The notes under the pieces are model-generated. The model made no database searches. It worked only from the letters and a program-made list of their open reading frames with translations, and was not told the DNA's origin. This document shows positions 5,540-20,399 of a DNA stretch of 64,000 nt, one piece after another. The number at the start of each line of letters is the position of its first letter. Position 1 is the stretch's first letter. The DNA comes from Gracilimonas sp. (GTDB lineage Bacteria; Bacteroidota; Rhodothermia; Balneolales; Balneolaceae). The stretch is from the NCBI RefSeq assembly GCF_040218225.1, contig NZ_JAVJQO010000008.1:124001-188000 (forward strand), written 5' to 3'. The translations under genes and the position numbers were made by a program.

Positions 5540-6386
5540 ATCAGCATATATGATTCTGAATGGTCAGATTATAGAAGAATCTGCCGCTGCTATTTCCCCA
5601 CTCAATCGCGGATTGATGTATGGGGATGGATGTTTTGAAACGCTGCGAAGTTACTCAGGAAAATTTCTGGGCTGGAGCAATCACGTTGAGCGACTAAAAT
5701 CGGGCTTGGAATATCTGAATATGGAATGCCCGGTTTCTCCTCGCGAATTGGAAAGTCATATCCGCACTCTTCTTAATCACAATCAACTGGAAAACACGGA
5801 AGCTATAATCCGTATTCAGTGTTGGCGAGATGGAAAAAGAGGGTATACGCCAGACTCCACCAAAGCCAGCTGGATGGTACAGGCGGGTAAACTTCAAAAC
5901 GAAGCAAAAGAACTGAAGCTTGCCGTAGCCAAAACACGCTGTATTCCTTCTGAAGCCCTCGAGCGCAAATATAAGCTGAGTAACGGACTGAACTATATTA
6001 AAGCCGCTCAGGAGGCCGGGGAACGTTCCTGTGATGATGCCTTGATGCTTACCGTTGATGATAAAGTGAGTGAGACTACATCGGCCAATATTTTCTGGAT
6101 CAAAGAAGGTAAGGTGCATACTCCGTCAGAAGAATGTGACTTACTTCCTGGTGTAACCCGGTCTATGGTTATGGATGTTATTCAAAGCTTGGGAATCCCG
6201 GTTGAAGAATCAGTTTACGATCTTTCGTCGGTCAAAAAGGCTGAGGCTGTTTTCTGCACGAATTCACTCATTGAAATTGTGGAAGTGATCTCACTGGATG
6301 ATATCCGTTTTGAAGTTAACCATCCGTTGAGCATGAAAATTAAAGTCGGATTTGAGCAATACAAGGTTCAGGAGTTTCAGAAATGA
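5532..6386 (+). CDS. pabC: Aminotransferase class IV, probable aminodeoxychorismate lyase
   Basis: 284 residues of the fold-type IV PLP family. Visible marks are GDGCFET (31-37), the PLP lysine K148 in KYKLSNGLNYIKA, and the VSETTSANIF motif with E181 that holds the cofactor ring nitrogen. The family includes branched-chain aminotransferases, D-amino-acid transaminases and aminodeoxychorismate lyase, which makes 4-aminobenzoate for folate. The last fits best: the length suits PabC and the next gene is folC, overlapping by 4 bases (ATGA). The start at 5532 overlaps the previous gene; an ATG at 5550 is an alternative. No pabA/pabB is in the window. Confidence 0.85.
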   Translation: MSKSAYMILNGQIIEESAAAISPLNRGLMYGDGCFETLRSYSGKFLGWSNHVERLKSGLEYLNMECPVSPRELESHIRTLLNHNQLENTEAIIRIQCWRDGKRGYTPDSTKASWMVQAGKLQNEAKELKLAVAKTRCIPSEALERKYKLSNGLNYIKAAQEAGERSCDDALMLTVDDKVSETTSANIFWIKEGKVHTPSEECDLLPGVTRSMVMDVIQSLGIPVEESVYDLSSVKKAEAVFCTNSLIEIVEVISLDDIRFEVNHPLSMKIKVGFEQYKVQEFQK

Positions 6387-7636
6387 AGTTATTTGATCGT
6401 ATTGAAGATGTGTGGGCCTATCTTGAATCCATCCCGATGTTTCAGAAATCCGGGACCTCAGCCGCTAATTTCTCGCTGGACAATATCCGGGCTTTTTGTA
6501 AAAGGCTTGGTAATCCGCAGGACAAATACCCATCTATTCACGTTGCAGGAACCAATGGGAAGGGGACGATTTGCTACTTATTGGAGAAAACCTACTCTGA
6601 TGCAGGCTATAAAACCGGACTGTTCACCTCTCCACATCTTTTACGCTACAACGAGCGGGTTAGAATAAATGGACAAGAAATAAGTAATGAACAACTGTTG
6701 AAGTTTTTTCAGGAGGCAAATTTACTGCTGGACGAAATTAAGCTGAGTTACTTTGAAATCAGTACGGCACTGGCTTTCTGGTATTTTGCACAGCAAGAAG
6801 TAGATCTGGCTATCATTGAAACAGGATTGGGGGGAAGGCTAGATTCAACCAATATCATCACTCCGGAAGTATCCGTCATCACAAGCATTGGCCTGGACCA
6901 TCAAGATGTTTTGGGAGATAGCCTGGAGGAGATCGCACGGGAGAAAGCAGGCATCATCAAAAAAAACAAACCGGTGGTGCTGGGCAATATCACAGGAAAC
7001 CCACTTCATGAAATCGAACGGATCGCAGAAGAACAAGAATCGACTGTTTATAGAACCGCTTCACTTGAACCGGAATACGAAGGTGGAATCATTTCACTTA
7101 AAAATGGCTCTATTAAATTTAAAACAACATTCAGGGAATCGGTTAATAAATGGAATGTTGCCTGCGTCTGGAAAGTGATTGAAATCCTCAGACAAAAATT
7201 TAAAGTTGATGAAGAGCAGGCTATACATTCTATAGAATCTTTTTCGGGTGCTCCGGGCAGGTTTGAGAAGTTGCATCCTGAACTTGAATGGTATTTCAGC
7301 GGGTCTCATAATGCTCAGGCATTGGAATCGTCTCTCAAAGCAGTGGAGGATATGAAGTCTAAGTCGGAGAGCATTCTGGTTTTTTCGGGCATGAAAGACA
7401 AACTCTCTCCAGATGTTATAGGGCAGTTACATGGGTTTAAAAAAGCATACTTTGTTGAACAGGAAGGCGAAAGGGCGGCAAAATTTGAAGATATCCGAAA
7501 ATTAATTGAGGCAGAATTAATCACTGAAAAGGGAAAAGAAATTATTTTAAATGAATTACAGACTGAGTTAGTAATTTTTATGGGAAGTTTTTACTTTTAT
7601 CCCATCGTTAAGCGGTGGACAACAAACGTATCATAA
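6383..7636 (+). CDS. folC: Bifunctional dihydrofolate/folylpolyglutamate synthase
   Basis: 417 residues of the Mur-ligase superfamily. The ATP loop is GTNGKGT (56-62), followed by the folate-binding FTSPHLLRYNERVRING segment and GLGGRLDSTN. The glutamate-ligase C-terminal domain follows, with GSFYF near the end. The enzyme adds glutamate to dihydropteroate and then extends polyglutamate tails, keeping folates in the cytoplasm. The ATG overlaps the pabC stop as ATGA, a common sign of translational coupling, so pabC and folC form a small folate operon. Length is normal for the family. Confidence 0.95.
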   Translation: MKLFDRIEDVWAYLESIPMFQKSGTSAANFSLDNIRAFCKRLGNPQDKYPSIHVAGTNGKGTICYLLEKTYSDAGYKTGLFTSPHLLRYNERVRINGQEISNEQLLKFFQEANLLLDEIKLSYFEISTALAFWYFAQQEVDLAIIETGLGGRLDSTNIITPEVSVITSIGLDHQDVLGDSLEEIAREKAGIIKKNKPVVLGNITGNPLHEIERIAEEQESTVYRTASLEPEYEGGIISLKNGSIKFKTTFRESVNKWNVACVWKVIEILRQKFKVDEEQAIHSIESFSGAPGRFEKLHPELEWYFSGSHNAQALESSLKAVEDMKSKSESILVFSGMKDKLSPDVIGQLHGFKKAYFVEQEGERAAKFEDIRKLIEAELITEKGKEIILNELQTELVIFMGSFYFYPIVKRWTTNVS

Positions 7637-7755
7637 TATCTCACCGCCTATTTTTCCTTACCTGATTGAATATCCAATGTTGTTGCCGGAATAGGGCAGC
7701 CTGATGTTCACCCCAAAATTCAGTAAGAATCATATATTTATAACAGCCACATTTT

Positions 7756-9303
7756 ATGTCAGATAATGAAACCGCCGGAATTTCGGCCGGGGAGTTAGAA
7801 TCCTTAGAGGGTAAAAAGCTTCACGAATTACAAACAATAGCCAAGTCAATTGGAATTAAACGGGTTACCGGAGTACGTAAAGTTCAGCTGATTGAACAAA
7901 TACGGGAAGAAGCCCAAAAACAGGATTCCTCTGATAGCAAAGCTTCAGACCAAAAAGATGACCGGCAAAAAAATGATTCCTCTGAGAAAGATTCAGAGAT
8001 GAAGAATTATGGGGGGCAGGATCACATCGTTTCTTACAAAAAGAAAGATGAAGAGAAGAAGGACGATTCAAAAAAGAAAAAGCATAAGCACAGTAACACC
8101 CGCCGAAAAGGTCATGAGCATAATAAGCTGCCTGAATCAGATGCGACCTCTCTGGAAGCGCGTATTAAAGAACTAGAGCCAGATCTTGGGCCATATTTGT
8201 TTAATGAAGGTACACTGGAAATCCTCCCGGATGGGTATGGTTTTCTTCGCTCAGTAAATTACAATTACAAAGCCAGTCCGGACGATATTTACGTGTCGCC
8301 ATCTCAGATTAAGCGTTTTCGCCTGAAGCAGGGAGACGTGGTGATTGGTGTAATTCGTCCCCCGAAAGTTGGAGAACGTTATTTTGCTCTGCTCCGTATC
8401 GAAGGGGTAAATGGACGTATTCCTCACGATATGGATAATCGTCAGGATTTTGAGGAACTCCTTCCGGTTCATCCCGACCAGCGGTATCGACTGGAATTTG
8501 AGGCAACTAATCATTCCACCCGACTTATTGATTTGTTTGCACCGGTAGGAAAAGGGCAGCGAGGCTTGATTGTAGCTCAGCCCAAAACCGGTAAGACTAC
8601 TATTCTGAGAAACATTGCCAATGCCGTTTCTGCCAATCATCCTGATACCAAAATTTTGATTGTGCTCATTGATGAGCGGCCGGAGGAGGTCACTGAAATG
8701 GAGCGTACCGTGAAAGGGGCAGAAGTGGTTGCTTCTACCTTTGACGAACGCCCTGAAAATCATGTTGGGCTTGCCGAAATAGTTTTTGAAAAAGCCAAGC
8801 GTCTTGTCGAAAGCGGACATGATGTACTGCTTTTGATGGATTCCATTACCCGCCTTGCACGGGCTTACAATATTACGGCATCCAACAAAGGACGAACCAT
8901 GACAGGTGGGGTAGATTCTGAAGCACTTAAAGCACCGCGACAGCTTTTCAGTTCTGCACGAAATATCGAGAACGGCGGATCGCTTACTATACTTGCTACT
9001 GCTTTGATTGATACTGGCTCCCGAATGGATGACGTGATCTTTGAGGAGTTCAAGGGTACCGGTAACATGGAAATCTACCTGGATCGCAGAATTTCTGATC
9101 GCCGCTTATATCCGGCTATCGACATCTTCCGAAGCGGAACCCGCCGCGAAGAGCTGTTGGTTTCGGATGCGGAACGCGAAAAGGTCGTCTTGTTGCGAAG
9201 GTATCTAACCAATATGAGTCCGTTTGAAGCCATGGATTTTCTGCTTGAGAAAATTAAAGGCACGAAGAACAACGAAGAGTTTCTTATCTCAATGAACAAA
9301 TGA
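7756..9303 (+). CDS. rho: Transcription termination factor Rho
   Basis: 515 residues. In order: a Rho_N SAP-like domain (about 12-50), a low-complexity linker rich in Lys, Asp, Ser and Gln (about 54-135), the cold-shock-like RNA-binding domain (about 148-215), and the hexameric RecA-type motor. The Walker A loop is QPKTGKTT (275-282), followed by [10 protein letters not shown] and the conserved [16 protein letters not shown] region. It unwinds RNA to end transcription. E. coli Rho is 419 residues; the excess is the charged linker, a feature of Rho in several phyla including Bacteroidota. It stands alone, with a 119-base leader upstream and a repeat element downstream. Confidence 0.97.
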
Positions 9304-17552: not shown

Positions 17553-18362
17553 TTGAATTATTCTAAAGAGTTAGAAGTCGCAAAACAAGCAGCAAAACAA
17601 GCAGCATCAATAATCCGCGATTATGCCGGAAGAACTTCTTTTGATGTGAAACTGAAAGGTAAGAACGACCTCGTTACCGATGCCGATGTGAATTCAGAAA
17701 AAAAGATTATAGAAGTAATACAGCAGGCTTTTCCTGATGATTATATTCTGGCTGAGGAATCACAGAAGCGATCTTCTATTCCAGAAGAACGTATCTGGAT
17801 TATTGATCCCATCGACGGTACTACCAACTTTGCGCATGCTTTCCCTGTGTATTGTGTTTCTATTGCTTTATGGGAAAACAGACAGCCTAAAGTTGGGTTG
17901 GTATATGAAGTAGCCAATGATGAATTGTTTACCGCTACAGAAGGTGAGGGGGCTTTTTTGAATGGAGAAGGCATTCACATTTCGCAAAACAATGATCCTA
18001 CTTCCTCTTTGATTGGGACGGGATTTCCTTATAATAACCTGAATCTGGTGGATAACTACCTCAAGCTTTTCAAGCGAATGATGGAGAAAACCCATGGGGT
18101 CCGTCGTCCGGGTTCTGCCGCCTGGGATTTATGCAATGTGGCCTGTGGGCGGTTTGAGGGATTCTATGAATATGGTTTAAGTGCCTGGGATGTAGCTGCT
18201 GGCGTGTTGATTATTAAAGAAGCCGGAGGAGTGATTACCGATTGGAAAGGAGAGGGAGAGTGGTTATTCGGACAACGCATTATAGCTGGTAATAAATCAG
18301 TACATGCCTTTTTGTTGAACGAAATTCAGCAATGTTTTGAACAGGATGAGCTTAAAGGCTGA
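17553..18362 (+). CDS. Inositol-monophosphatase-family protein (SuhB-like)
   Basis: 269 residues. The metal-binding motifs are all present: E68/E69 in LAEES, D85-P-I-D88-GTTNF, and the C-terminal AWDVAAGVLIIKEAGG. The family dephosphorylates inositol-1-phosphate and related sugar phosphates, and some members (SuhB, CysQ) have other roles; the substrate is not readable. The start is TTG: an in-frame TAG sits at 17547-17549, so no upstream start is possible, and AGGG lies 7 bases ahead of the TTG. The first residues fit the usual N-terminal helix. Confidence 0.9.
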   Translation: MNYSKELEVAKQAAKQAASIIRDYAGRTSFDVKLKGKNDLVTDADVNSEKKIIEVIQQAFPDDYILAEESQKRSSIPEERIWIIDPIDGTTNFAHAFPVYCVSIALWENRQPKVGLVYEVANDELFTATEGEGAFLNGEGIHISQNNDPTSSLIGTGFPYNNLNLVDNYLKLFKRMMEKTHGVRRPGSAAWDLCNVACGRFEGFYEYGLSAWDVAAGVLIIKEAGGVITDWKGEGEWLFGQRIIAGNKSVHAFLLNEIQQCFEQDELKG

Positions 18363-18434: not shown

Positions 18435-20399
18435 ATGGATATTTCTATCAGAAGATCAACATTGGAAGACCTCGATCTTTTGCTTCAGCTTGAACAAAAA
18501 GCGTTTCCTTATTTCCAGCAAAGTCCGCGCCGAACGCTTGATTTAAGCCTGAAGAGTACATTTCAGCAAGTATGGATTGCTGAATTTTATGATGGTGATA
18601 CGCTCAAAACAGCGGGCAGTCTTATTCTTTACATGTATAAAAAAACCATCAGAATTTTTTCCATTGTAGTTGATCCCGATTACCAGGGGCATGGAATTGG
18701 CAGGCAATTGCTTAGCCATGTGCAAAAAATAGCTGCAGAAAAAGGTGCTGAACGAATATCATTGGAAGTGAATGCCGATGATCGGAAGTTGATCGATTGG
18801 TATAAAAAAGCTGGCTTTGAGTCTACAGAACTGCTAAGTGATTATTACGAATATGGAAGGGATGGATTAAGAATGGTTTTTGAACTTCCTCATCAGGAGG
18901 GAAAGTCACGCATCTCGAACGTCATTGTGGTCGATAATCCAAAAAACTGGAAGCTTGAAGTTGCGAATGTTGAAGTGGTTTCATCCAGAGATTATACAGC
19001 AAATAACGAACAGTATGCTGATCGCCCTCTAAGGGTTTTTAATTTGTGTAATTCCTATAAGTATCAAAGTATTGGGTACTATGTTTCATTGTTGGCTTCA
19101 GCCCGGGCTCACCGTGCAATTCCCAATGTTACCACCATCAGGGACTTCCGTGATGTAGGAGTGATTCGTTCCATTGCCGATGATATTGACGAAACTATTC
19201 AGAAGGCTCTTCAAAAGTGTAAAGAGGATAAACTGGTTCTCAATATTTACTTTGGACAAACTGTAGATGATAGCTATAAGCCATTGGGACAAAAGCTATA
19301 TCAAATGTTTGAATCTCCAATATTTCAGGTTCATTTTATAAAGAACAATCGTTGGGATATAAAGAAAATCGCCCCGCTCAGCATGAATAAAGTGCCCGCT
19401 GAAGAGTTGGAATACATTCAGGGTTTTGCAAAAAGCTATTTTGAAACCAAGAGATTTCAGAGAACCAAGCTTAAGAATTATAAATACTATCTGGCTGTAC
19501 TCATTAATCCTAAAGAAGAAAATCCGCCTTCTAATAAAAGGGCGCTCAAGAAACTGGAAGATGCAGCTGATGACCTGGACATTTATACAGAATACATCAC
19601 AAAAGAAGATTATAACCGACTTTCTGAATTCGATGCCCTGTTCATACGTGAAACTACCAATGTGAATAATTACACCTATCAGTTTTCTCGGAAAGCTTAT
19701 GCTGAAGGATTAGCGGTGATTGATGATCCGTGGTCAATTTTACGCTGTTCAAATAAGATTTACCTCCACGAGCGATTGAAAATGAACAACATTCCTACAC
19801 CAGAGACAAAAGTATTCTACAAAGGAATGATGAAAGAAAAGGATTTTGCTGGACTTAAATATCCTATGATTCTTAAACAACCGGATAGTGCTTTTTCGTT
19901 GGGAGTGACTAAGGTTAAGGATGCTCAAGAGATGGAAGAATCATTAAACCGACTTTTTAAATCATCCGATTTAGTGATTGGGCAGGAGTTTCTGCCTTCG
20001 GATTTTGACTGGAGAGTAGGGGTTTTGGATAACCAGCCTTTGTTTGTGTGTAAATATTTTATGGCCAAAGGGCATTGGCAGATTTATAACTGGAAAGGCC
20101 CAAAGAAAGATCAGTCTGGTGATGCATCAACTATACCACTCAATGAGGTGCCGGCAAAGGTACTTAAAGCAGCTACAAAAGCAGCATCACTAATGGGAGA
20201 CGGACTTTATGGAGTTGACCTGAAAATGCTTGGCGACAAAGTGTATGTGATCGAGGTGAATGATAATCCTAATATAGATGCCGGAGTAGAGGATAAAATT
20301 CTTGGTGACGAGCTGTATAAAAGAGTGGTCAAATCTCTGGTAACCCGCATTGAAATGTCCCGGAACATTGAACGCTTCGTAAGTATAGAACCAGATTAG
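18435..20399 (+). CDS. GNAT acetyltransferase fused to a RimK-like ATP-grasp ligase
   Basis: 654 residues in three parts. Residues 1-150 form a GNAT acetyltransferase with the acetyl-CoA loop QGHGIGR (84-90). About 180-400 resembles the N-terminal domain found ahead of RimK-like ATP-grasp proteins. About 440-640 is the ATP-grasp core, with PMILKQPDSAFSLGV, IGQEFLPSDFDWRVGVL and the metal/ATP motif EVNDNPN (607-613). ATP-grasp enzymes of this group join an amino acid to a carboxyl group of a peptide, protein or small molecule. The GNAT part suggests that acetylation or a GNAT-like peptide transfer happens on the same product. There is no substrate peptide gene next door: upstream (72 bases) is an inositol-monophosphatase gene, and downstream bshB1 converges. 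Product unknown. Confidence 0.85.
   Translation: MDISIRRSTLEDLDLLLQLEQKAFPYFQQSPRRTLDLSLKSTFQQVWIAEFYDGDTLKTAGSLILYMYKKTIRIFSIVVDPDYQGHGIGRQLLSHVQKIAAEKGAERISLEVNADDRKLIDWYKKAGFESTELLSDYYEYGRDGLRMVFELPHQEGKSRISNVIVVDNPKNWKLEVANVEVVSSRDYTANNEQYADRPLRVFNLCNSYKYQSIGYYVSLLASARAHRAIPNVTTIRDFRDVGVIRSIADDIDETIQKALQKCKEDKLVLNIYFGQTVDDSYKPLGQKLYQMFESPIFQVHFIKNNRWDIKKIAPLSMNKVPAEELEYIQGFAKSYFETKRFQRTKLKNYKYYLAVLINPKEENPPSNKRALKKLEDAADDLDIYTEYITKEDYNRLSEFDALFIRETTNVNNYTYQFSRKAYAEGLAVIDDPWSILRCSNKIYLHERLKMNNIPTPETKVFYKGMMKEKDFAGLKYPMILKQPDSAFSLGVTKVKDAQEMEESLNRLFKSSDLVIGQEFLPSDFDWRVGVLDNQPLFVCKYFMAKGHWQIYNWKGPKKDQSGDASTIPLNEVPAKVLKAATKAASLMGDGLYGVDLKMLGDKVYVIEVNDNPNIDAGVEDKILGDELYKRVVKSLVTRIEMSRNIERFVSIEPD

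Follow-up and report, generated by a model that had tools for sequence, protein, structure and literature searches.

The gene of interest occupies positions 18435–20399 of the forward strand in a 64,000-nucleotide stretch of Gracilimonas sp. DNA (the window): a 654-aa ORF with an ATG start and no internal stops, and the sole RLAN gene of the 3.54-Mb genome. Pfam places three domains in the protein, all with matches exceeding the curated cut-offs: Acetyltransf_1 (PF00583) at residues 16–128 (E = 1.3e-16), RLAN (PF14401) at residues 185–327 (E = 6.8e-44; 149.6 bits versus a gathering score of 25) and RimK/ATP-grasp families at residues 438–616 (E = 1e-9 to 9e-7). The GNAT, RimK-type N-terminal and ATP-grasp domains proposed in the initial annotation were all recovered, by Pfam as well as by structure matches, and both motifs that it named, QGHGIGR (84–90) and EVNDNPN (607–613), lie where it had put them. 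The features are:

18435–20399, forward strand: whole gene, GNAT-RLAN-ATP-grasp fusion, 654 aa (ORF check, Pfam)
18435–18884, forward strand: GNAT domain, RimI-like, residues 1–150 (PF00583; model compared with RimI 2cnm)
18684–18704, forward strand: predicted acetyl-CoA loop QGHGIGR, residues 84–90 (conservation in fused homologues)
18765–18767, forward strand: E111, aligns with the glutamate of the RimI LEV motif (21/21; RimI alignment)
18801–18803, forward strand: Y123, aligns with the RimI tyrosine after LEV (21/21; RimI alignment)
18921–19454, forward strand: RLAN domain, residues about 163–340, ATP-grasp-like predicted fold, probably non-catalytic (PF14401; model)
19479–20372, forward strand: pre-ATP-grasp and ATP-grasp ligase domains, residues 349–646, RimK/LysX-like (structure matches to LysX and RimK)
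19755–19757, forward strand: K441, putative ATP-binding lysine, aligned with the first RimK lysine (163/163; alignment)
19875–19877, forward strand: K481, putative ATP-binding lysine (163/163; alignment)
20217–20219, forward strand: D595, metal ligand by alignment (163/163)
20253–20273, forward strand: EVNDNPN, residues 607–613, with putative metal ligands E607 and N609 (163/163 and 162/163)

Ligase residues were assigned from an alignment with RimK and LysX, those of the GNAT domain from one with RimI. On the basis of these alignments, we take K441, K481, D595, E607 and N609 to be the equivalents of the RimK ATP and metal residues, and E111 and Y123 to correspond to the catalytic Glu and Tyr of RimI. 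K441, K481, D595 and E607 are shared by all 163 homologues compared, N609 by 162 of them; among the fused homologues (n = 21) G89, E111 and Y123 are present in 21/21, Q84 and G87 in 19/21 each. Decay of the GNAT or ATP-grasp sites, which the initial annotation had named as a finding that would speak against it, is not what we observed: with E111, Y123, G89, K441, K481, D595 and E607 invariant, the key residues of both active sites are intact as judged from conservation, and neither domain is decayed.

A whole-protein AlphaFold2 model built from 31 sequences reached a mean pLDDT of 82.9 and a pTM of 0.49, so that the relative placement of the domains in this model is unsure. Residues 2–156 of the model match RimI 2cnm (Z 22.2, rmsd 1.7, 148 aligned), and residues 349–646 match LysX, RimK and ArgX with Z 26–27 (LysX 3vpd 27.3, RimK 7qyr 26.8). 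RimK adds amino acids to S6, LysX and ArgX add them to LysW, and RimI acetylates S18. As these closest structures all act on proteins, the main rival to the interpretation preferred below is a protein modifier: its ATP-grasp domain would extend a cellular protein by one or more amino acids, at the C-terminus or on a side chain, and its GNAT domain would acetylate the N-terminus or the added residue. We consider this possible but rather doubtful. The window gene has the ATP-grasp fold and the ATP/metal residues in common with RimK, LysX and ArgX, and the GNAT fold and the conserved Glu and Tyr in common with RimI. However, it differs from the ligases in its additional GNAT and RLAN domains and from RimI in that its GNAT is fused, and it stays below the NCBIfam cut-offs of both families, which argues against a protein modifier: 68.2 bits versus 143.4 for the RimK family TIGR00768 and 64.7 bits versus the equivalog cut-off of 86.4 for RimI TIGR01575.

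The RLAN domain modelled alone gave a pLDDT of 90, and all 50 matches listed for this model by Foldseek belong to the ATP-grasp superfamily (E = 2e-5). The best structure matches were ArgX, RimK and LysX (Z 10–11.8), with ArgX reaching Z 11.8 over 171 of 189 residues (rmsd 4.4). A profile–profile comparison of RLAN with ATP-grasp families returned nothing (hhalign probability <2%), and a search for sequence relatives of RLAN among solved structures gave nothing below E = 0.08; since sequence profiles lend no support, the fold match, which we regard as likely, is drawn from predicted structure. The RLAN model covers its structural targets end to end and lacks the ATP-binding lobe, and its putative metal-ligand positions, placed by secondary structure, are not conserved. 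On this model RLAN looks like a truncated and decayed relic of an ATP-grasp unit that would no longer be catalytic.

In order of domains, RLAN followed by ATP-grasp, the protein is an RLAN-type ATP-grasp amidoligase, and the partner that is usual for this type, although not strictly defining (GNAT or GCS2/FGase), is present as a GNAT domain in the same chain. According to the Pfam entry PF14401, RLAN ligases go with GNAT, C39-like peptidase or GCS2/FGase neighbours; an association with GNAT and C39-like peptidases was reportedly described by Iyer et al. in 2009. We compiled 166 RLAN loci: 80 from a species-genome scan, 80 from family searches, five from plasmids and the window itself, some of which are duplicates because the sources overlap. 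For 80 of the loci from family searches 13-kb stretches were taken, and all loci were scored for partners using profiles made from partner sequences. Reduction at 80% identity left 95 representatives (23 fused, 27 GNAT-C39, 14 GNAT alone, 28 GCS2 and 3 without a partner, including L181). The fused form was found at 36 of the 166 loci and in several phyla; Draconibacterium and Labilibaculum are among the relatives that have it, whereas Winogradskyella has the GCS2 form. The initial annotation was right about the single chain but incomplete, as other genomes have the fusion too. Full-length homologues with this fusion (46–73% identity) come from many separate genomes, some of them of cultured strains, and so it is real, neither a chance event nor an assembly error. 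RLAN ligases as a whole were present in 81 of 397 sampled Pseudomonadota genomes and in 30 of 247 sampled genomes of the window's own phylum; this patchy spread in the own phylum argues against a core ribosomal target of a protein modifier. One locus (L157) carries a 298-aa partial RLAN-ATP-grasp gene, possibly a shortened ligase, whose end is overlapped by a GNAT-C39 gene.

Upstream of the fusion gene, at a distance of 72 nt and on the same strand, lies an inositol-monophosphatase-like (IMPase-like) gene (17553–18362); downstream, a convergent bshB-like gene is only 9 nt away. These gaps leave no room for an adjoining precursor gene, and a comparison of short ORFs near the 36 fused loci found none kept beyond close relatives, which bears out the earlier remark that a precursor gene is missing; a precursor of a ribosomally made peptide beside the fused gene was rejected accordingly. 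The bshB-like and IMPase-like neighbours are likewise kept only in close relatives (L002, L003, L141–L143). A functional link to them was rejected, and their proximity is probably coincidental, as had been suspected for the bacillithiol-deacetylase-like and phosphatase genes. Promoter and terminator scans differed little from shuffles. Beside main-clade fused loci no C39, GCS2 or FGase genes were found, nor do members of this clade share any neighbour family except among close relatives: the fused form is mostly a solitary gene. Housekeeping modifiers often stand alone as well, a point in favour of the protein modifier.

The usual form in Pseudomonadota, a GNAT-C39 protein paired with an RLAN ligase, does not apply here, as no C39-like domain occurs in or beside the gene (DUF3335-type peptidases were searched for in its vicinity). 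Nor does the operon of C39, RLAN ligase, GCS2 and FGase: neither GCS2 nor FGase lies beside the gene, and no FGase was found in its own genome. The genome does contain one distant GCS2-like stretch (L221; G000:C6:579460-580173) within a 657-aa open frame, and a similar frame of 649 aa occurs in G248. No member of the C39 family of the GCS2 operons was found in the own genome, and a search of other fused-form genomes gave a single weak partial match (E = 3.4e-4 over 47 positions), which is no partner of the ligase. The initial annotation had linked the gene to amidoligase and peptidase systems, correctly so. C39-like genes accompany many unfused ligases, but the main-clade fused form has dropped C39. 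These peptidases would fit a maturation pathway for a ribosomally made peptide, in which the precursor would be encoded elsewhere and the C39-like peptidases of the relatives would cut its leader; graspetide ATP-grasp ligases act on precursors (PMC8939145). With no short ORF kept beyond close relatives at the 36 fused loci and the GCS2-operon C39 family missing from the fused-form genomes searched apart from the weak partial match, we judge such a pathway improbable.

Over all 166 loci a GNAT partner was found for 88 ligases, a GCS2 partner for 76, both for 0 and neither for 2, that is one or the other near 164/166. Profiles alone gave 87/76/3; L181, whose GNAT-C39 ORF overlaps the ligase gene, was reassigned to GNAT by hand. 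The two ligases without a nearby GNAT or GCS2 are L098, from a Pseudomonas aeruginosa plasmid, and L174. The GNAT partner is part of the ligase chain (36 loci) or encoded next to the ligase, in the latter case either by itself or joined to a C39-like peptidase, which in the examples examined by Pfam is PF11814 (DUF3335); GCS2 usually comes with FGase, and the examined operons consist of C39-like, RLAN-ATP-grasp, GCS2 and FGase members. From this comparison the acetyltransferase is seen to replace another ligase, GCS2, that accompanies the RLAN ligases of other bacteria. Exclusion is complete in the sample, yet it reflects few independent events, because the GNAT/GCS2 split needs only two changes on the tree. 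That GNAT and GCS2 never occur together would be expected if the two catalyse alternative reactions at the same amine. Free amino acids are the substrates of those GCS2 enzymes whose function is known, and the alternative partnership with GCS2 and FGase points to small substrates rather than to a protein modifier.

In the ligase tree the main fused clade (20 rows) adjoins the GCS2 group. At its base lies L025 (Verrucomicrobiia MAG, 5820–7811), with unfused GNAT and RLAN-ATP-grasp genes separated by 3 nt, likely an intermediate stage before fusion. A second fused group (L210, L156, L159) sits among the GNAT-C39 ligases, and its GNAT domains also fall among GNAT-C39 GNATs in a GNAT tree of few columns and many weak forks. 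A single origin was rejected when all fused rows were held together (p-AU 0.013, a somewhat flattering value because the tested group was chosen with the tree already known): the fusion arose at least twice. In L210, L216 and L218 (Pseudomonadota; second group) the fused gene is accompanied by a convergent separate GNAT-C39 gene, which places two GNAT domains beside one ligase. Two independent fusions point to GNAT and ligase acting together. They argue, along with the several adjacent arrangements and the invariant GNAT catalytic residues, against the view that unrelated domains were fused by accident or that the GNAT domain merely tunes the ligase; nothing speaks directly for this view except that the GNAT sequence varies more than that of the ligase, and we hold it to be very improbable.

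A precedent is Ngg (TIGR03103), which likewise carries an N-terminal GNAT and a C-terminal ATP-grasp domain in one chain and whose product is an acetyl dipeptide: it acetylates a glutamine and forms a peptide bond to a second one, yielding N-acetylglutaminylglutamine (PMC8070244). In contrast to the window gene, Ngg has no RLAN domain by Pfam, and its GNAT falls in a separate clade. Identity between the two, compared for five Ngg loci (L136–L138 left out), is about 22% over a short ligase stretch. The window gene was absent from the TIGR03103 matches at E up to 0.001, the best score in the genome being 30.1 bits, elsewhere, versus a cut-off of 569 bits, and no asnO amidotransferase gene lies beside it, the neighbours being the IMPase-like and bshB-like genes. 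Membership in Ngg was rejected on these grounds.

The reading we prefer, at somewhat less than even confidence, is by analogy with Ngg: a one-chain, two-step amide synthetase that would make an N-acetylated short peptide or isopeptide. The C-terminal ATP-grasp domain would convert a carboxylate into an acyl phosphate and couple it to a second amino acid through the latter's amine, the carboxylate probably belonging to a Glu-like amino acid or a short peptide. The RimI-like N-terminal GNAT would acetylate a free amine, either on one of the partners or on the product, and RLAN would probably contribute to the substrate pocket or to an internal pseudo-dimer interface. A substrate common to both domains, acetyl as the group transferred and a small product are inferences. 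The computed basis consists of the domains, the intact residues, the alternation, the absence of partners and the RLAN fold match. In favour of an amide synthetase, GNAT accompanies RLAN ligases in several arrangements and was fused to them twice independently, the catalytic residues are invariant, the fusion needs no peptidase or precursor gene beside it, and Ngg sets a precedent for acetylation and ligation by one protein (PMC8070244). Against it, the similarity to Ngg is only distant, and the two changes on the tree weaken the alternation as support. Moreover, a small product is at odds with RimK and RimI, close structural relatives that modify ribosomal proteins, and with the C39-like peptidase on many unfused GNAT partners, which suggests a peptide substrate. 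More speculatively, and in our estimate unlikely, the ligase would be a fused pseudo-dimer, with RLAN as a decayed, dead ATP-grasp unit beside a live one, and the alternation between GNAT and GCS2 would represent N-acetyl and glutamyl-type versions of a single undescribed small-peptide class.

RLAN ligases with GNAT-C39 or GCS2/FGase neighbours contain the same RLAN domain, ATP-grasp domain and GNAT partner as the window gene, whereas here GNAT is fused and no peptidase, GCS2 or FGase gene lies beside it. As the association of RLAN, GNAT and C39 was already known, the peptidase-free single-gene form is a variant and not a new kind: the fusion is a conserved single-gene version of a known enzyme pair. 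The searched literature (RLAN, PF14401 and the gene combination) contained no biochemically assigned homologue and gave no RLAN substrate, although these ligases occur in about a fifth of the sampled Pseudomonadota genomes and an eighth of those sampled from the own phylum. The alternation narrows the possible products, as it predicts an acetyl-capped product in the GNAT group and a glutamyl-type product in the GCS2 group, and the fusion, with ligase and acetyltransferase in one protein and no conserved partner genes, offers the simplest form in which to search for the substrate.
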